Assembly (NCBI RefSeq): GCF_001693255.1
Contig: NZ_CP016474.1
Coordinates: forward strand, 2,188,661 to 2,252,660
DNA from: Picosynechococcus sp. PCC 7003
GTDB taxonomy: Bacteria > Cyanobacteriota > Cyanobacteriia > Cyanobacteriales > MRBY01
DNA: 64,000 bases
Direction of reading: 5' to 3'
The notes under the pieces: model-generated
Seen by the model: only the letters and a program-made list of their open reading frames with translations
Database searches by the model: none
Told to the model about the DNA's origin: nothing
Made by a program: the position numbers and the translations under genes
In this document: piece by piece, positions 2,568 to 14,843 of the stretch
Layout of the letters: each line of letters opens with the position of its first letter
How positions within the stretch are numbered: position 1 is the first letter of the stretch

Positions 2568-3260
2568 CTATCCGGCAACGAGGTTTAACAACCCTTCAAA
2601 TAAGCCTTTGCCGTCGACTAAACCAAGACTGCCATCGGCGGCCCGTTCCGGGTGGGGCATCATCCCTAAAACATTTCCGGCTTGGTTAGTAATACCAGCG
2701 ATGTTATTGAGAGAACCGTTGGGGTTAGCGGCCTCATTCACATTCCCCTGGGTATCGCAATAACGGAATAAAACCTGCCCCTGGTCTTCGATCGCCTTGA
2801 GGGTGTCGGGGTCGGCATGGTAGCGGCCTTCGCCGTGAGCGATGGGGATATTGATCACCTGGTTTTGGCGATAACCCCTCGTCCAAACCTGGGTATTATT
2901 TTCAACTCGCAGGTATTGGCGATCGCAAATGAAATGCAGATCCCGGTTTCGCACCAAGGCCCCAGGCAGCAGGCCGACTTCTGTCAAAACTTGGAAGCCA
3001 TTACAAACCCCCAGCACATATTTCCCTTGATTAGCATGGTCAATGACGCTCTGCATGACCGGGGAAAATCGGGCGATCGCCCCACAGCGGAGATAATCTC
3101 CATAGCTAAAGCCCCCTGGCACCGCAATCACATCGATATCCGCAATGTCCGTTTCCTTGTGCCAGATCATCCGCGTCGGCTGCCCAAAAATCCCTTCCGT
3201 CACCATCGCCATGTCGCGGTCACAGTTGGAGCCAGGAAAAACAATTACACCAAATTTCAT
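2568..3260 (-). CDS. purQ: Phosphoribosylformylglycinamidine synthase, glutaminase subunit PurQ
   Basis: A 230-residue class I glutamine amidotransferase that supplies ammonia to FGAM synthase (PurL) in step 4 of purine synthesis. The start [16 protein letters not shown] is typical for PurQ. The nucleophile elbow GVCNGFQ (Cys about 91) and the His/Glu pair in MMPHPERA near the C-terminus are visible. It lies 50 nt downstream of purS in the same direction, the usual purS-purQ pair of organisms with a small three-subunit PurL. purL itself is not in the window. Confidence 0.97.
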
Positions 3261-3310
3261 CGTGTCGTTACCAATTGATTAATTACTGCAAGGGAATTGG
3301 GCTAGAAAAT

Positions 3311-3568
3311 TTAGCTATTTAGGGGCGTGAGGTCGAAGCGATAATTTTCAATGACGGGATTGGTCAGGAGCTGATCGCACATTTGATCCACCTTGGCCTT
3401 AGCTTCTGCCTCGTCGGCGGCAGCAAGATTTAACTCAATGTATTTCCCAATGCGTACCCCAGAAACGCCCCCATGGCCCAATTGACTGAGACCTGATTCT
3501 ACAGCGGCACCAGCCGGATCAAGAACAGAGGGACGGAGCGTGACATAAACTTGTGCGTGGTACTGCAT
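3311..3568 (-). CDS. purS: Phosphoribosylformylglycinamidine synthase subunit PurS
   Basis: An 85-residue protein beginning MQYHAQVYVTLRPSVLDPAG, the characteristic opening of PurS, which dimerises and bridges PurQ and PurL in the FGAM synthase complex. The pattern VRIGKYIELNL and the closing NPVIENYRFDL also fit. The ATG at 3568 matches the family N-terminus; an in-frame TTG three codons upstream is ignored. First gene of the purS-purQ pair. Confidence 0.95.
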   Translation of the reverse strand: MQYHAQVYVTLRPSVLDPAGAAVESGLSQLGHGGVSGVRIGKYIELNLAAADEAEAKAKVDQMCDQLLTNPVIENYRFDLTPLNS

Positions 3569-3660
3569 AGAACTCAAACTGTGAAGACGGTTTTTATTGT
3601 ACGTTGCGGTGGACTTCTGGAAAACTGAAACGCGCCTCCCTCCGAAAATTCCCTGGCTCC

Positions 3661-4680
3661 CTAGAGAAAATAGCTATAGCCGAGGGCAAAGAGAAAGGTA
3701 AGCTGACCCGCTAACAGGAAAAAATACAGGATGAAGCGGGGTTTAAAAATCGAGAGCATCAGGCCGACCGCTTTGATATCGATCATCGGCCCGAAAATCA
3801 GAAAGGCGAGCAGAGAGCCCGTCGTGAAGGTGGAGGCAAAAGATAGGGCAAAGAAAGAATCCACCGTCGAACAAATGGAAACAATCGCCGCCAACAGCAT
3901 CATCGCCACGATGGAGGTAATTGTCCCTTGGCCGAGGCTCAAGACCACTTCCCTGGGCACAAAGACTTGAATTAAAGCGGCGATCGCACTGCCGAAAATC
4001 AACACCGCCCCCAGTTCCCGCAATTCCACAGAAATGTTGTTGACCAAGGCCCCAAAGAGGGTTTTAAAACTCCGGTCTTGGGTCGCCGCTGGTGCTGGCA
4101 TTTGGGTCGCCACTGTTTCGAGGGGGACTGTCTGCTGGGCACCGAGGAAAAATGTCCCCGACTGGAGCAGAGGGCTGGTGTTCGCCGCCTGGGCCTGGTT
4201 TTCATTGACCTGCTGGACAAATTTTAAGCGTTGGGCCAGTTTCGGTTGGAGCAGCTTTTTGGGGTCTGATTCGACACTAAACACTGTGCCGACGATGGTG
4301 GCGATCGCCAAAGAACCCAGCACCCGGTAGAGCACAATTTCCGGCTGACCCCGAAAGGCGATCCAGGTTGACCAAATCACCACCGGATTGAGGGTCGGGG
4401 CCGACAACAAAAAACCCACCGCCACGGAAGTGGGGATCCCCTGGAGCATAAAGCGACGGGCCACGGGCACATTGCCACATTCACACACCGGAAACAAAAA
4501 CCCAATGCAACTGCCCATAAAGGCCCCTAAAACTGGATTTTTCGGTAAGCGCTGGATCAGTTGGCGCTCATCAACACACACCAACAGCACACTCGAGAGG
4601 ATTACCCCCAGCAACAAAAAGGGCATCGCCTCCACCAACAGGCTGACAAACAGGGTAAAGGCATTGTGTAATTGACTCAT
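3661..4680 (-). CDS. YraQ/DUF318-family permease
   Basis: A 340-residue polytopic membrane protein with about eight hydrophobic segments and a hydrophilic central loop (about residues 150-215). The family signature is seen in FPVCECGNVPVARR near residue 70 and again after the loop in ICSTVDSFFALSFAS and FGPMIDIKAVGLM. This family is annotated as predicted permease; substrates are not settled. The ATG at 4680 (MSQLHNAFTLFVSLLVEAMP) places a hydrophobic helix at the N-terminus and leaves a 22-nt gap to the upstream kinase gene. The longer open frame from 4761 would overlap that gene. Probably co-transcribed with the kinase. Confidence 0.85.
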   Translation of the reverse strand: MSQLHNAFTLFVSLLVEAMPFLLLGVILSSVLLVCVDERQLIQRLPKNPVLGAFMGSCIGFLFPVCECGNVPVARRFMLQGIPTSVAVGFLLSAPTLNPVVIWSTWIAFRGQPEIVLYRVLGSLAIATIVGTVFSVESDPKKLLQPKLAQRLKFVQQVNENQAQAANTSPLLQSGTFFLGAQQTVPLETVATQMPAPAATQDRSFKTLFGALVNNISVELRELGAVLIFGSAIAALIQVFVPREVVLSLGQGTITSIVAMMLLAAIVSICSTVDSFFALSFASTFTTGSLLAFLIFGPMIDIKAVGLMLSIFKPRFILYFFLLAGQLTFLFALGYSYFL

Positions 4681-9256: not shown

Positions 9257-12200
9257 TCAGGAAAATATTTGAATTTCGGCGGCATAATAGCGTTTTGTTT
9301 CGGCTTCGGTGTGGCTAAAGATTACGCCTAAATCTTCGAGGATTTCTAAACATATTGGGATGGCTTTTGCTTTGGTTTTTGTGCTGCCTTTAAACTGGGC
9401 AGAAATTTGAGTTTGTGTCCATTCGCTGCCTTGGGTGCGGAGGAGATCGCGGATGGCGGCGAGTTGATCTTTGAGTTTGGTAGGGAATTTTTGTTGTTCG
9501 GGTGGGGCGATCACCTCTTCTTTTTCTTCTTCTACCCCTAATCCTTCAATGACTTTTTGGGTGATGACTTGATCGGGGGCTTGGTATTCGGGTCGGAGCC
9601 AACGGACAAAGCCGTTTCGTTCTTCTTCGGCACGTTCTGCATTCAAATCGACTAATCTTTGCAGGATAGTTTGTTCGAGTTGTTCTTTGAGTTCGCTGTT
9701 GTTGGGTTCGGTTTGACATCCCTCTAAATCTTCCATCCCTCCGCCTTCGGCACCTCCCTTGGGAAGGGAGACAAGATCGCCATAAACCTTTTGCCACAGG
9801 GGGATCAGGTCGTCCCATCCGTAGGCTTGGAAAACGAGGCGATCGAGGTCGTCATGGATTTGTTTTAGGGTCGTGATTAGGGCTTTATTGTTAAATTCTC
9901 TGTCTGCATCGGTGAAGGGTTCAACCCGTCGCATTTTTTCGAGGCAGTTATACATCGCGGTGATGGTGACTTCGGGATGTGCGCCTTGGACTTGTTTGCG
10001 GTGGCTGTCTAATCTCTCGCCTAATTCGCGGATTTCTTGTTTCAGTTCTGCCGATGGATCTGGAAATGGAAAAGGATCAAAACAAACAGAATTGTTATAA
10101 CGTGGTCGGTCTTCTAAAGTTCCCCCCATCGCTAATGTCCAACAGATATGTATTTGGCTTGATACAATTCCAAGAGTAAAAGCATCTTCTAGAGAAAGAA
10201 TAATCAAGCTGCCATCAGGTAAAACATTAGAATCGACAAAAATAAAAAATCTATGCTTTGAAACTTCACTTGTGACAATATATCTTTTCAAGTCTTGGTT
10301 TGCTTGTCTCATTGCTGGTCGTGTTCTACCAAAAAGCCACCATTTTTCTCTAAATAAACGGTCTGTACTTTGTTCTCGATGCGGTCTGATTTGTTCAACA
10401 ATTCTCTGATACGCCGTTGGATTAAGTTGTTGCGCTGAATTAGAGTCATATCCAAAAAAATCAATTACAAATGCATTTCTTGTAAGACCTGTTATATCGT
10501 CACCTGATAAATATGGACGAATAACTGAGGAATTTTGTGCAGACTTATATTGAGATACTTCATCACTTTGTATCAAGAATCCTCTAGCCCAATGCTCTCC
10601 TTTATTTCTGCGTGGTTGAACTAATTTACATCCTTGGTAGCTGATTTGTGAATTAGATTGCAGAGAGGCAGCTTTTATAATATCAACACCAATTCTTAAA
10701 TCGTCATAAATAATCCCTTTTGACCAAGAAAATTTTAATAAGCTTGCTTTTTCTTCTGGGGTTTCTCCCTCAATTTCTTGAATGATTTTACCTAAACGAC
10801 CACGATATAACTTTTCGTGTGCTGTAGTCATTGCAATTCTCACTTGTGCTGCACCTTCTTCTTCATCTACCCAAGGATGGTCTGGGATTGCAAAAGAAAT
10901 TGATAACGCTCTTTTTTTTCGATGAGTATGTAAGCAAACAACTTGTCTATTCCGAATTTGACTAATGCTATTGCTTGTAATTAAACCAAAGCTTTTAATA
11001 CTCTTTTGAGATAATAATTCCCCACAGCGATTCCACCAATACATAACATAATCGATATTGGCAGGGGTTTTTGAATATGTACTAACTAATGAATCTACAT
11101 AACCGTCACCTAATTTTGTTCTCATTTTTTTAGTTCCCAAAAAAGGCGGATTGGAAACAATATAATCAGCCTGTTGCCATTGCGCTTCCCGTGGATTGAT
11201 ATACTCTAAAATTTTCACCTGATCACTCGGATCCGGCACATCCTCTCCCGTTACTGGATGCCTCATCGTGCGTCCACCCCAGCGCGTTCTCACCTTGCCC
11301 GTTTTCGGATCAATCGCCGGTTTCGTCCCGTCATAATCCAACACCGCATCCCGACACTCAATATTTTTATATTCCCGTAACACAGGCTCCACAGGCGGCA
11401 AATTCCCAAACAAACGAAAATGCCATTGCAAATAGCCAATCCAGATCACCAAATCCGCAATCTCCGCCGCCCTCGGATTAATTTCAATGCCCAAAAACTG
11501 CGAAGGATTCACCTGATCAAAATCCAGCCGTAACTGAGAAGACCCCAACACCGTCCCTAAACGATTCAGAACCTCAAGCTCCAGCGTTTTCATCAAATCC
11601 ATCGTCACATAGAGAAAATTCCCCGACCCACAAGCCGGATCAAGCACCCGAATCTGCCGCAATTCCCCCAGAAACTCCGTCAATTTTGCCGCCGCCTCCT
11701 GCCGTTTTTTGGTTTTAGCCGCCGCCGATTTCGCCGCTTCCTCCTCCTCTAAAAGCGTTTCCACTTCTCCTTGGAGCAACTGCCATTTTTCCTGTAATGG
11801 CTCAATAATCACCGGACGCACCAACCGCTCCACATAAGCCCTCGGCGTATAATGCGCCCCCAATTTGCTCCGTTCCTTCTTCTCCAACGCCCGCTCCAAC
11901 AACGTCCCAAAGATCGCCGGCTCCACATTTTTCCAATCCCGTTCCGCCGCCTTCAGCAAAATCTTTAACTGTTCCGCAGTAAGTTCAAGGGCTTGCGGAT
12001 TCGCAAACAGCCCCCCATTAAACCGGAGCAACTGCCCATGAAACCCAAAACTCGTCCCCCCATTCATCGCCTGCCATAACGCCTCCACCTGCGGTTTAAA
12101 ATCCTGCGGTTTCAGCAACCAACGACTTTCCAGAGCCTCCGTAAACAACTGCTCTTTTAATAAGCCCACATCCTCCGCAAACATCGTAAAAATACACCGC

Positions 12201-12853
12201 ATCAAAAATTGCGCCACCACCTGCGGATCCGCCGTTTTTTCCAACGTTTTCGCCAAATCCGCCAAATCCGCTGCCACTTCCCGCGTCACCTGCGCTGCAA
12301 TCTTTTCAGGATTTAACGACTGCGGATCCGTGAAAATTTTATAGAAAAATTCCTTAACATCCGGCTTTTCCAGATCCGTAAACAGAATTTTCGGCACACT
12401 GTCATAGGTTCCGTAATTCCCATTCGCACTGAGCCAAGACTCACTAAAATCCTGCCACACCCGAAAATGATCGCCGATATCGCAGGTAATCAAAAACGGC
12501 GGTTTCGGAGTCACAAAGCGCGCATAGGTACGAGCCTGTCCAAATGCTTTCTTCATCTCCTTACGATAGGTTGCCGTCCCTCTTTTCCCCGTCCCTTTAT
12601 TGCTGCTATTACTACCCTGCTTGGCCTCTAGGACAAAGCAACCCTCTTTATAAAAATCGATAAAATTCGTTGTTGTCACCCCACTCGGCGCAATAATTTT
12701 TACATCCCGATCAAAGCAATAATAATTATTCTCCCGTCCCTTCGGTGGCGACGGCTCCACCCCTAGAAATTCACAAAAGTCATTCAAAAAAGTCTGGTAA
12801 TTTGCCCGTTCATTCCCTTCCGAGCCTGCCCACTTCTGAATAAAATCCGTCAT
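9257..12853 (-). CDS. Single-chain restriction-modification enzyme (MmeI-like, type IIG/IIL)
   Basis: A 1198-residue protein starting MTDFIQKWAGSEGNERANYQ, the usual opening of MmeI-family enzymes that combine endonuclease and N6-adenine methyltransferase. A PD-(D/E)xK-like element is seen in FIDFYKEGCFVLEAKQG (about residues 85-100). Methyltransferase motif I is VLDPACGSGNFLYV (about 410) and motif IV is YIVSNPPFLG (about 570). A target-recognition region follows, then a C-terminal coiled and winged-helix-like part. The ATG at 12853 is taken over a GTG three codons upstream. The segment coding residues about 565-920 is much richer in A+T than both flanks, and no HIP1 site occurs in the gene. 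No separate methylase or nuclease gene adjoins it. No frameshift is seen. Confidence 0.9.
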   Translation of the reverse strand: MTDFIQKWAGSEGNERANYQTFLNDFCEFLGVEPSPPKGRENNYYCFDRDVKIIAPSGVTTTNFIDFYKEGCFVLEAKQGSNSSNKGTGKRGTATYRKEMKKAFGQARTYARFVTPKPPFLITCDIGDHFRVWQDFSESWLSANGNYGTYDSVPKILFTDLEKPDVKEFFYKIFTDPQSLNPEKIAAQVTREVAADLADLAKTLEKTADPQVVAQFLMRCIFTMFAEDVGLLKEQLFTEALESRWLLKPQDFKPQVEALWQAMNGGTSFGFHGQLLRFNGGLFANPQALELTAEQLKILLKAAERDWKNVEPAIFGTLLERALEKKERSKLGAHYTPRAYVERLVRPVIIEPLQEKWQLLQGEVETLLEEEEAAKSAAAKTKKRQEAAAKLTEFLGELRQIRVLDPACGSGNFLYVTMDLMKTLELEVLNRLGTVLGSSQLRLDFDQVNPSQFLGIEINPRAAEIADLVIWIGYLQWHFRLFGNLPPVEPVLREYKNIECRDAVLDYDGTKPAIDPKTGKVRTRWGGRTMRHPVTGEDVPDPSDQVKILEYINPREAQWQQADYIVSNPPFLGTKKMRTKLGDGYVDSLVSTYSKTPANIDYVMYWWNRCGELLSQKSIKSFGLITSNSISQIRNRQVVCLHTHRKKRALSISFAIPDHPWVDEEEGAAQVRIAMTTAHEKLYRGRLGKIIQEIEGETPEEKASLLKFSWSKGIIYDDLRIGVDIIKAASLQSNSQISYQGCKLVQPRRNKGEHWARGFLIQSDEVSQYKSAQNSSVIRPYLSGDDITGLTRNAFVIDFFGYDSNSAQQLNPTAYQRIVEQIRPHREQSTDRLFREKWWLFGRTRPAMRQANQDLKRYIVTSEVSKHRFFIFVDSNVLPDGSLIILSLEDAFTLGIVSSQIHICWTLAMGGTLEDRPRYNNSVCFDPFPFPDPSAELKQEIRELGERLDSHRKQVQGAHPEVTITAMYNCLEKMRRVEPFTDADREFNNKALITTLKQIHDDLDRLVFQAYGWDDLIPLWQKVYGDLVSLPKGGAEGGGMEDLEGCQTEPNNSELKEQLEQTILQRLVDLNAERAEEERNGFVRWLRPEYQAPDQVITQKVIEGLGVEEEKEEVIAPPEQQKFPTKLKDQLAAIRDLLRTQGSEWTQTQISAQFKGSTKTKAKAIPICLEILEDLGVIFSHTEAETKRYYAAEIQIFS

Positions 12854-12901
12854 ATTTTGCACACATACTGAGGCGATCGCCCCTTGATTTTACCCCATAC
12901 A

Positions 12902-13564
12902 CTAAGGAACCCCTTCTGTCTGCGACATCTCCCCCAAGGGAGTGGGTTTTTGGAAGGCGATCGCCGCTGCCCAAATATGGAGATAATCTGCTGCCCGTCG
13001 CCAGGAGCCTTGGGATTGAGCCACGATTTCCGCCGCTTTTTCCGCAGACAGGGTTAAAAGACAGGTTTGTTCTGGGATAGTAGCCGCCACAATTTTGAGT
13101 GCGGCCCAAGCTTGCAAAGTTGAGATATCGAGGGGTGGCAGCGTGATCGTTGTTGTTTTCAGCCCCGCAAGTTTCGCCCAAAAACTCACATCTACATGGC
13201 TGCCGACCACCACTGTCCCCTGTCGCATCCGCACCCGGAGCAGTCCCCCCACAAACAAACCCAGGGGCAGGCGATCCACCTCGTCCCAATAGGCGATCGC
13301 CCCCGTTTTGAGCCATTGCCAGCGCTGGAGATAATTGGGCGGCACGTAGCAATAATTTCCCCCCGTTTGCGATCGCCAATGGTGCAGATGGGCCGTTTTC
13401 CCGAAACCCTTTTCCCCCAAGATTTGCACAAATTGATTTCCTCCTGGCAAGGGAGCTTCAGAATAACCGCGATCCAGCCAGAAAGTGACATCTTGCGCCA
13501 GTTGTTCCGTACCGATAAACGGATTGTGCCGTAAACCGATTGCCTGGTAAGGATTTATCGTCAT
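12902..13564 (-). CDS. AAA-type ATPase, last gene of a three-gene operon
   Basis: A 220-residue P-loop ATPase. The N-terminus (NPYQAIGLRHNPFIG) recalls the opening of ExeA/MoxR-like AAA proteins. Walker A is LGEKGFGKTA (about residue 50), Walker B is AIAYWDEVDRLP, and a sensor-1-like VVVGSHVD follows, so the nucleotide site looks intact. A small helical lid (ALKIVAATIPEQT... to AADYLHIWAAAIAF) ends the protein. Its start lies 2 nt after the stop of the arrestin-like gene, which points to translational coupling. Specific function not recognised; I infer that it acts with its two operon partners. Confidence 0.8.
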   Translation of the reverse strand: MTINPYQAIGLRHNPFIGTEQLAQDVTFWLDRGYSEAPLPGGNQFVQILGEKGFGKTAHLHHWRSQTGGNYCYVPPNYLQRWQWLKTGAIAYWDEVDRLPLGLFVGGLLRVRMRQGTVVVGSHVDVSFWAKLAGLKTTTITLPPLDISTLQAWAALKIVAATIPEQTCLLTLSAEKAAEIVAQSQGSWRRAADYLHIWAAAIAFQKPTPLGEMSQTEGVP

Positions 13565-13566
13565 GC

Positions 13567-13950
13567 TTAGGCCAATACCTGAAAAGAAGCCACTGCCGTA
13601 TCTTTGTCACCAAACAAGCCTGGAAACGTGATCTTCACTTCCACTGCCCACATCAACCGAAACAAAAAGCCATCGTAGGAAATGGGCACGTCTAAGGGGA
13701 TTTCAAAGGAAAAAGAGTGCTTCCGACCGATCAGGTTCATCACCATATTTGGGTCAAGGATTTGGAAATTTATTACTTGGCGATCGCCTTTCCCACGACC
13801 TTCCGTTGACCAGAGAATTGAAACTGTCGCTTTTTTCGGGCAACGGTCTGGATTTTCCGGCTGCCAAATAAAATAACCCGATAATCTTTCCCCTAACCTC
13901 ACTTCATCGCAGTCTAGGTGTAGCTCAATGGGCGTTTTCAGCGTCGTCAT
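13567..13950 (-). CDS. Arrestin-like beta-sandwich protein
   Basis: A 127-residue protein with alternating strand pattern and the arrestin/Spo0M-type layout: IELHLDCDEVRLGERLSGYF at the start, then a mid-section ending HSFSFEIPLDVPISYDGFLF, then MWAVEVKITFPG and a closing FQVLA. No catalytic motif and no membrane segment. Its ATG overlaps the stop of the upstream membrane gene (ATGA) and it is followed 2 nt later by the AAA ATPase. The fold call rests on pattern only. Function unknown. Confidence 0.7.
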   Translation of the reverse strand: MTTLKTPIELHLDCDEVRLGERLSGYFIWQPENPDRCPKKATVSILWSTEGRGKGDRQVINFQILDPNMVMNLIGRKHSFSFEIPLDVPISYDGFLFRLMWAVEVKITFPGLFGDKDTAVASFQVLA

Positions 13951-14843
13951 GGTTTATTTACTACTCTCAGCTTAAAAAATGAGGTGTCCCGTACCACCTG
14001 GGGCAAATGACAACGCACTTGCAATTCCCAGCGCAGTTGATTATGGGTCGGTGCGTAGATGCTCGGCTTGGCATCGGGGGGAATGGTCAGGTCAATGGTA
14101 TATTCCAGTTGTTTGACCCCCCGACTAATGGCGCGCTCCAAGCAAGTCTGGGTCGAAAACCCATGGGTCACCGTTTCGAGGTCTGTGCCACGGTAATATT
14201 GCACCCATTCGTAATGCAGCCAGATGGCAGACAAGAGGGCTGTTTGGGTCGTGTGTCCATTGCGCAAGGGACGACGATAGCGCACCCGATAGGTTTCCCC
14301 GGCATAGAGCGGATAGGTCGGTAAAATAAGCATTCCGGCTTTGATCCGATATTTTTGGTAGAGGAGCCGCCCCACCCAAATCAAACCACCCACGCCGATG
14401 GCCACAAAGGGCGTTAGAAATAGCAACATCAATACATTGCCGACAGCTGGTGTTCTGAGAAGTTGTAATAGGGCGATCGCAAACATCGTAAAAGAAACCC
14501 CGCACCAAATGCCGAGCCACGCCGTAATAAAAAGACCCGCACAGCCCACTGCCGCCCAGCTACTCGATTGGGGAGACTCTGCTGAGAGGACATAACCTTC
14601 TGGAGTATATTTTGGCTCCCAGCATTGGGCATTGGGGCAATACTCTTGCTGTGGGATTTTGAGATTGGCCATGGGCGATCGCCTGAAGTTCCCCACCATT
14701 TTCCCTAGAATTTCGACGGGCGTCTCAAAAAAATAGATAAACCTTATCAACCAAAGCCCAAGGGATACCCACAGTCCCCACAGAAGCAAAAGTCCTGCAA
14801 ATTTGACGTTCTCCCATACCCTTAAATTATTATGCTGCGACAA
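13947..14843 (-). CDS. Membrane protein with C-terminal arrestin-like domain
   Basis: A 298-residue protein, function not recognised. Transmembrane helices are seen near residues 13-38 (FAGLLLLWGLWVSLGLWLIRF...), 97-125 and 135-160. The C-terminal 130 residues look like a second beta-sandwich: YPLYAGETYRVRYRRPL, then a strand-rich middle, then PSIYAPTHNQLRWELQVRCH and FFKLRVV at the end. This closing pattern matches that of the downstream 127-residue protein, so the operon encodes one membrane-anchored and one soluble arrestin-like protein plus an ATPase. It is the first gene of the operon, divergent from ahcY. Confidence 0.7.
   Translation of the reverse strand: MSQHNNLRVWENVKFAGLLLLWGLWVSLGLWLIRFIYFFETPVEILGKMVGNFRRSPMANLKIPQQEYCPNAQCWEPKYTPEGYVLSAESPQSSSWAAVGCAGLFITAWLGIWCGVSFTMFAIALLQLLRTPAVGNVLMLLFLTPFVAIGVGGLIWVGRLLYQKYRIKAGMLILPTYPLYAGETYRVRYRRPLRNGHTTQTALLSAIWLHYEWVQYYRGTDLETVTHGFSTQTCLERAISRGVKQLEYTIDLTIPPDAKPSIYAPTHNQLRWELQVRCHLPQVVRDTSFFKLRVVNKP

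Follow-up and report, generated by a model that had tools for sequence, protein, structure and literature searches.

Arrestin-clan proteins are central to the regulation of membrane proteins in eukaryotes, while the bacterial members of the clan have been little studied. In the eukaryotic alpha-arrestins, both lobes are part of one chain, which recruits ubiquitin ligases. The bacterial Spo0M is soluble and is not known to need a transmembrane (TM) partner or an AAA+ gene. PMC2515105 assigns Spo0M to the arrestin clan and names it as a bacterial family. AAA+ partners of scaffolds that lie beneath the membrane are described for phage shock protein (PSP) systems in PMC11237479. Here, we analyze a trio of adjacent genes in a stretch of 64,000 nucleotides (hereafter, the window) from the cyanobacterium Picosynechococcus sp. 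PCC 7003 (contig NZ_CP016474.1). The trio encodes a membrane protein with an arrestin-like domain (MEM), a soluble arrestin-like protein (SOL) and a small AAA+ ATPase. An earlier note, made from the letters of the window and their open reading frames (ORFs), had drawn attention to this operon.

Organization and conservation of the trio

The three genes follow one another in the same orientation on the minus strand, in the order MEM, SOL, ATPase, and all features of the trio described below lie on that strand. MEM (13947–14672) encodes a membrane protein of 241 amino acids (aa) in which two predicted TM helices precede the arrestin-like domain, SOL (13567–13950) a soluble protein of 127 aa with a single arrestin-like domain, and the third gene (12902–13564) a minimal AAA+ protein of 220 aa. 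The tight coupling that had been read from the ORFs at 12902–13564, 13567–13950 and 13947–14843 is confirmed: the MEM stop and the SOL start share the 4-nt overlap ATGA (13947–13950), and SOL and the ATPase gene are separated by 2 nt (13565–13566). Scans for promoters and terminators returned about the number of sites expected by chance. None of the three window proteins has a useful match in Pfam, NCBIfam or PADLOC, the single NCBIfam match (E = 0.69) being meaningless.

A contiguous trio was identified at 13 loci. These are found in the window genome (G000), in Picosynechococcus sp. PCC 7117 (G002, the nearest named relative that carries the trio), in G003, G004, G005, G250, G385, G350, G113 and G380, on a plasmid of Anabaena cylindrica PCC 7122, and in two actinobacterial genomes, G475 and G771. 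In G475, the operon is divided between two contigs, which share a terminal overlap of 160 bp (99.4% identity). The order in G771 is permuted to ATPase-MEM-SOL with 4-nt overlaps at both joins, so that the overlap of the MEM stop with the SOL start is found both in the window and in this permuted operon. The earlier note had counted a lack of conservation elsewhere against a shared system; the neighbourhood survey instead found the trio conserved in other genomes.

In a sample of six genomes of the genus, window included, the trio is adjacent in five and absent from G001. Among 388 genomes of the cyanobacterial class, matches at E ≤ 0.01 were obtained for SOL in 14, for MEM in 14 and for the ATPase in 12 genomes, some of the weak ones being false. 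The SOL match in G243 falls in an ORF resembling a radical-SAM-type protein, the MEM matches in G072, G076 and G103 and the ATPase match in G126 proved spurious after frame reading, and the ATPase tail in G415 is an open stretch of 37 codons. At E < 1e-10, a cut-off that drops G069 and G125 (which carry fusions), G082 and the MEM match of G062, the numbers are 11 (SOL), 9 (MEM) and 10 (ATPase) genomes. All ten genomes with the ATPase then have SOL and eight of them also MEM, the other two carrying broken MEM genes. Hypergeometric figures for this co-occurrence (down to 6e-19) ignore relatedness and are descriptive only. Both MEM and the ATPase gene are broken in G062 and G290, with SOL broken as well in G062, and the trio therefore decays together. 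In actinobacterial samples centred on the Acidimicrobiales metagenome-assembled genome G425, the set was found in two of 198 genomes of the class and two of 217 of the phylum, G425 included in each case.

Departures from the contiguous arrangement are of several kinds. Single-chain fusions of the form SOL-2TM-MEM are encoded in G125 and G069 (family f43; L117:4988-6046 and L118:960-2228) with no ATPase nearby, the MEM part of the G125 fusion being weak (E = 0.008). In G277 and G425, MEM and SOL stand together and the ATPase gene elsewhere, and G240 has MEM-SOL and no ATPase detected in its genome at E ≤ 0.01. On the Anabaena cylindrica PCC 7122 plasmid (pANACY.03; L080:5865-9429), the ATPase gene is interrupted after the Walker A motif by a stretch that holds an open frame of 474 codons, transposase-like by eye. 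A search of plasmids with the ATPase and MEM yielded one record with relatives of both. MEM-like genes are also seen outside the set. G082 encodes a lone relative (L079:7768-8676) that has two hydrophobic segments and neither a SOL nor an ATPase gene in its vicinity, a hint that membrane arrestin-like proteins may form a wider family. Second MEM-like genes lie away from SOL in G277 (L078:1-765) and G240 (L077:8639-8917, with an internal stop).

All three genes are under purifying selection. The ratios of nonsynonymous to synonymous substitution rates (dN/dS) lie between 0.075 and 0.27 in three genome pairs: for MEM, SOL and the ATPase, respectively, they are 0.112, 0.165 and 0.150 between G000 and G002, 0.075, 0.110 and 0.108 between G004 and G005, and 0.181, 0.120 and 0.270 between G250 and G385. 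Because these ratios are low and the trio recurs elsewhere, the arrangement is taken to be more than chance. We propose that the three genes form a single functional module.

Arrestin relationship of SOL and MEM

Comparison with hhalign shows homology between SOL and the C-terminal domain of MEM (probability 95.7, E = 1e-8, 116 columns). At E ≤ 1, the Arrestin_N family (PF00339) is matched by 8 of the 13 rows for SOL and 10 of the 12 for MEM, with best E-values of 3.7e-7 and 1.9e-5, respectively. Spo0M (PF07070) matches are weak and fewer (5 of 13 SOL rows and one of 12 MEM rows; best E-value 0.015). When ten proteins were scanned singly, seven matched Arrestin_N, mostly in its C-terminal half. 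No Arrestin_N match was returned in these scans for the SOL of the Anabaena plasmid, the MEM of G475 or the only ATPase included. The SOL of G113 exceeds the curated Arrestin_N cut-off (30.7 versus 24.9 bits) and is the one relative that enters the arrestin clan (CL0135) at that level; the curated Spo0M cut-off was reached by none of the ten (best 15.3 versus 23 bits), and the window proteins had no match. Each chain of the trio would carry one lobe, the two being fused in G125 and G069. PDB sequence searches with profiles of all three families returned nothing credible, the 5HT2B matches of MEM being noise from its TM segments. The earlier note had likened both proteins to arrestin/Spo0M folds, and this resemblance is supported by the profiles at the level of the families. 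That SOL and MEM each carry one arrestin-clan lobe is well supported by sequence comparison.

Start, topology and model of the membrane protein

The 5' end of MEM had been placed at a TTG codon (14843), which is not borne out: homology begins at the ATG at 14672. In two alignments, the relatives of MEM start at or near the residue that matches this ATG. The DNA of the trio in G002 aligns with the window at 85.9% over 1797 columns, from 12954 to 14749, and nothing else is common to the two in the first 20 kb. This shared block comprises the trio and about 77 bp upstream, with different flanks on either side. Upstream of the trio in the window stands the divergent gene ahcY (identified by eye), and the window DNA from 14802 onward, TTG start included, aligns upstream of ahcY in G002, where no trio stands. 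Given the starts of the relatives and these alignments, neither the TTG (14843) nor the hydrophobic segment that precedes residue 58 of the longer ORF belongs to the protein; the extension (14673–14843) ends distally in sequence of the ahcY upstream region. The ATG at 14672 is preferred as the MEM start, with an in-frame ATG at 14699 as the alternative.

The correction changes the proposed membrane tether, from the three helices first described to two. The two TM segments predicted from hydropathy and charge counts span about residues 51–69 and 80–98 and, with the short loop between them, correspond to 14379–14522. In the rows for which both segments were called, 11 of the 12, lysine and arginine number zero or one between the segments and two to four in the 20 residues after the second. 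On account of this distribution, the C-terminal domain (about residues 112–241, 14339–13950) is placed on the inner side of the membrane and is probably cytoplasmic.

The structure models of MEM and the ATPase were built from shallow alignments of three and four rows (window, L048, L049 and L050 sequences). The MEM model, which is of low confidence (pLDDT 52, pTM 0.35), has helices at residues 40–73 and 77–107 followed by eight strands. With Foldseek, the N-lobe of ARRDC3 appears at ranks 4 and 8 and N-domain chains of TXNIP (VDUP-1) at ranks 21 and 47 (E-values from 6e-3 to 4e-2), in a list that mixes arrestin lobes with unrelated beta-sandwiches and two-TM Kir channels. With VIA, all Z-scores are below 8 and no arrestin chain is among the 50 rows shown. 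The top VIA match, seipin (Z 7.8, root-mean-square deviation (rmsd) 3.0, 110 aligned residues), was treated as a generic sandwich on account of its Z-score. The first Foldseek rank is taken by a KirBac channel (2x6c), a match that suggests a layout of two TM helices with an Ig-like domain. A channel was rejected for MEM, given the poor model and an alignment in which no selectivity-filter motif of potassium channels was seen. The absence of arrestin-like folds from structure predictions, named beforehand as evidence against the idea, was not observed, but the quality of the MEM model does not allow the fold to be established.

These results bear on one alternative, namely that unrelated genes became neighbours by chance and that the arrestin likeness is that of any beta-sandwich. 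Such a reading would account for window proteins that match no arrestin profile and for a poor MEM model that resembles many unrelated sandwiches, but not for the co-occurrence of the genes in two phyla, permuted order included, for the SOL-MEM fusions or for the score of the G113 protein against Arrestin_N. We regard it as highly improbable, the co-occurrence having already largely refuted it.

Motifs and fold of the ATPase

The nucleotide-binding motifs that the earlier note had recognized in the third protein are present and conserved. They comprise Walker A (GEKGFGKT, residues 50–57, 13394–13417), Walker B (IAYWDE, residues 90–95, 13280–13297) and a sensor-1-type strand end (TVVVGSH, residues 117–123, 13196–13216), to which a sensor-2-type motif (SWR, residues 187–189, 12998–13006) can be added. 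Conservation was followed in two alignments, one of 12 rows with the window and one of 13 rows that adds G475 and G771 and leaves out G002. G53, G55, K56, D94, E95 and H123 are invariant in both (12 of 12 and 13 of 13), as is W93 of the Walker B motif, and R98 is invariant in the 13 rows. G50 is replaced by alanine in one of the 13 rows, and neither of the added actinobacterial rows, G475 and G771, retains T117. The sensor-2-type R189 is present in 12 of 12 rows and in 12 of 13 of the wider set, with tryptophan in G771. The window protein and all 12 rows of the first alignment show these motifs in the order typical of AAA+ proteins, from Walker A through Walker B and sensor 1 to sensor 2. That these are the motifs of an active AAA+ ATPase, in a protein with hardly any further domains, is well supported.

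The model of the ATPase is of moderate confidence (pLDDT 63, pTM 0.58). Foldseek returned five PDB matches at E ≤ 0.001, with AAA+ proteins at the top ranks listed and RFC at 4.3e-4. VIA returned three chains at Z ≥ 8, with Hda at Z 8.7 (rmsd 5.2, 157 aligned residues) and MuB at Z 8.3 (rmsd 4.2, 169 aligned residues). The model thus matches AAA+ proteins of the clamp-loader, DnaA and MuB types and supports, with moderate confidence, an AAA+ fold.

History of the trio

Quick trees of the three genes agree on the pairs G000 and G002, G004 and G005, and G250 and G385, and on a well-supported genus group. Going by group codes, sequences of family f45, from another order, are closer to those of the window than are sequences of family f8, from the window's own order. 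Between G000 and G002, the chromosomal position of the trio differs, and its edges are sharp. The placement in the trees and the differing positions suggest horizontal transfer, and the difference between G000 and G002 may instead be due to chromosome rearrangement. The gene ahcY failed as a species yardstick: its identity is 40–41% in some cyanobacteria against 84% in another, which suggests different subfamilies.

Genomic neighbourhood

The neighbours of the trio, mostly judged by eye, differ from locus to locus. In the window, a type IIG restriction enzyme-methyltransferase gene (MmeI-like, 9257–12862, minus strand) follows with a GTG start about 40 bp after the ATPase stop and matches the PADLOC entry PDLC03627 with 1428.6 bits. 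This neighbour had been taken as a hint of defence. No relative of the gene was found at the 23 other loci searched, but defence-type genes of other kinds stand near some loci, and the hint keeps some weight. On the Anabaena plasmid, cas1, cas2, csx18 and a CARF-WYL gene adjoin the trio. Uma2 genes stand beside both pieces of the split set of G277 (L070:8148-9020 and L071:9991-10716) and match the PADLOC candidates PDC-S17 and PDC-S03. In G004, a distance of about 3.4 kb separates the trio from a C5 cytosine DNA methyltransferase gene (L074:13778-14983), and genes for CHAT, XisH and XisI proteins adjoin the decayed locus of G062 (L072:2-2070).

A defence system against phages or plasmids, in which the ATPase would sense infection and act through the membrane protein, would fit these neighbours, the patchy distribution and the different positions of the trio in G000 and G002. 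Several results speak against it. The three window proteins have no PADLOC match up to E = 1, and ten chosen neighbours from nine other loci have no credible one, two matches near 4e-5 falling on a coiled-coil HlyD-type protein. Of eight neighbours checked later, four have no match. Many neighbours, judged by eye, are housekeeping genes such as pheT, gcvP, ppc/upp and prfB. No effector domain is recognizable. In searches of phages with the ATPase and of viral contigs with the ATPase and MEM, no relative was detected. On balance, we consider defence an unlikely function of the trio, though the Uma2 genes of G277 and the methyltransferase gene of G004 raise its odds slightly.

Other neighbours point elsewhere. 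In G240, a gene for a CitMHS-type permease follows MEM-SOL with a 4-nt overlap (L069:8794-11127). In G425, the start of the ATPase gene overlaps the end of an ABC permease gene (BPD_transp_1; L050:894-3119 and 3106-3711), while MEM-SOL stands beside a gene for an extracytoplasmic function (ECF) sigma factor (L083). The overlaps with transporter genes, in sets that are incomplete (G240) or split (G425), give a weak hint of what the clients of the trio might be.

Proposed mode of action

We tentatively favour a split-arrestin adaptor with a dedicated AAA+ loader or remodeller that controls membrane clients, a possible reading of the sequence data. That the two-helix hairpin of MEM holds its lobe at the membrane, probably on the cytoplasmic side, and that SOL is soluble are well supported. 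SOL would dock on MEM at the inner face of the membrane and supply the second lobe, giving a two-lobed, membrane-anchored adaptor. We infer this composite arrestin from the fusion of SOL and MEM into one chain in two genomes and from their translational overlap. The AAA+ protein may act as a nucleotide-driven loader or remodeller of the SOL-MEM adaptor. It would drive SOL onto or away from MEM, or release it from a membrane client to which it is bound, for instance a transporter or a receptor, and could thereby set the activity of the client. As a whole, the trio would resemble an arrestin adaptor whose cycle is driven by ATP.

A different role for the same parts is stress response or protein quality control at the membrane, in which the MEM/SOL adaptor would capture damaged membrane proteins or membrane and the AAA+ protein would extract or remodel them, by analogy with PspA and its AAA+ partner or with ESCRT and Vps4. 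A membrane-anchored adaptor with a small AAA+ protein fits such a role, as do the AAA+ partners of PSP systems (PMC11237479) and the ECF sigma factor gene beside MEM-SOL in G425. Against it, neither a protease nor a PspA-type partner was recognized by eye in the neighbour lists. By eye, no PspA/Snf7 gene was recognized at the loci, and no profile search aimed at PspA/Snf7 was made. Unfoldases usually carry extra domains, for which an ATPase of 220 aa leaves little room, and the distribution is patchy even within the genus, where G001 has no trio, unlike that of core quality control. This role strikes us as rather unlikely. The probability not taken up by adaptor, quality control and defence falls to functions that we have not thought of and to chance.

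Several observations weigh against the adaptor. The genomes G240, G125 and G069 have MEM and SOL domains and no detected ATPase, no arginine finger was identified in the ATPase, and its sensor-2 arginine is replaced by tryptophan in G771. The MEM and SOL of the window themselves match no arrestin profile, and the same holds for MEM in G475 and for the plasmid-borne SOL of Anabaena. With so poor a MEM model, the case for the arrestin fold is carried by matches to sequence profiles, almost all of which fall below the Pfam cut-off. The N-terminal segment of MEM shows no clear positive excess in several rows, with two lysine or arginine residues versus eight aspartate or glutamate residues in G250. 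The tree of SOL groups the long-branched G240 with the genus and that of MEM does not, and the actinobacterial rows are placed differently in the three trees. In G277, the other split case, the pieces adjoin Uma2 genes and not transporter genes.

A more far-reaching version of the adaptor would make the trio a 1.8-kb cassette, spread horizontally among cyanobacteria and actinobacteria, in which a split, membrane-anchored two-lobe arrestin is assembled on its clients by its own AAA+ ATPase. It would be a prokaryotic counterpart of the control of transporters by alpha-arrestins, with ATP hydrolysis in place of ubiquitin. In this full form, we find it distinctly doubtful. The trio could reveal a new bacterial way of controlling membrane proteins. 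A conserved and genetically tractable module this compact (about 1.8 kb), with separate arrestin lobes and an ATPase of its own, would allow the role that arrestin folds had before the advent of receptors and ubiquitin to be tested directly. Picosynechococcus includes transformable laboratory strains.

Comparison with known systems

The earlier note knew of no described system of this composition, and none was found in the literature searched: a system of an arrestin with an AAA+ protein is described neither there nor in the Pfam, NCBIfam and PADLOC libraries. The words "arrestin" and "Spo0M" are absent from the main text of PMC11237479, and term counts for "arrestin" are zero in PMC7159879 and PMC13092281. 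The folds all belong to known superfamilies, and the trio would be an arrestin-clan module that combines split lobes with an AAA+ ATPase.

The systems that come closest each share a part of this composition. PspA/Vipp1 and ESCRT-III with their AAA+ partners likewise pair a scaffold beneath the membrane with an AAA+ protein (PMC11237479), but their PspA/Snf7 component was not recognized by eye at the loci of the trio. Hda, DnaA, MuB, RFC and TnsC, AAA+ proteins of the initiator and clamp-loader type, resemble the ATPase in core fold and order of motifs, whereas the latter has no visible DNA-binding domain in its 220 aa and its partner genes are membrane-bound and arrestin-like rather than genes of replication or transposition. 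Spo0M resembles the trio in having arrestin-clan beta domains in bacteria, as the weak profile matches suggest, but in the trio the lobes are separate chains, one of which is anchored in the membrane. Finally, the alpha-arrestins (ARRDC3 and TXNIP) share Arrestin_N, to which most SOL and most MEM proteins have their match, and differ from the trio in that the latter is a split pair accompanied by an AAA+ ATPase.

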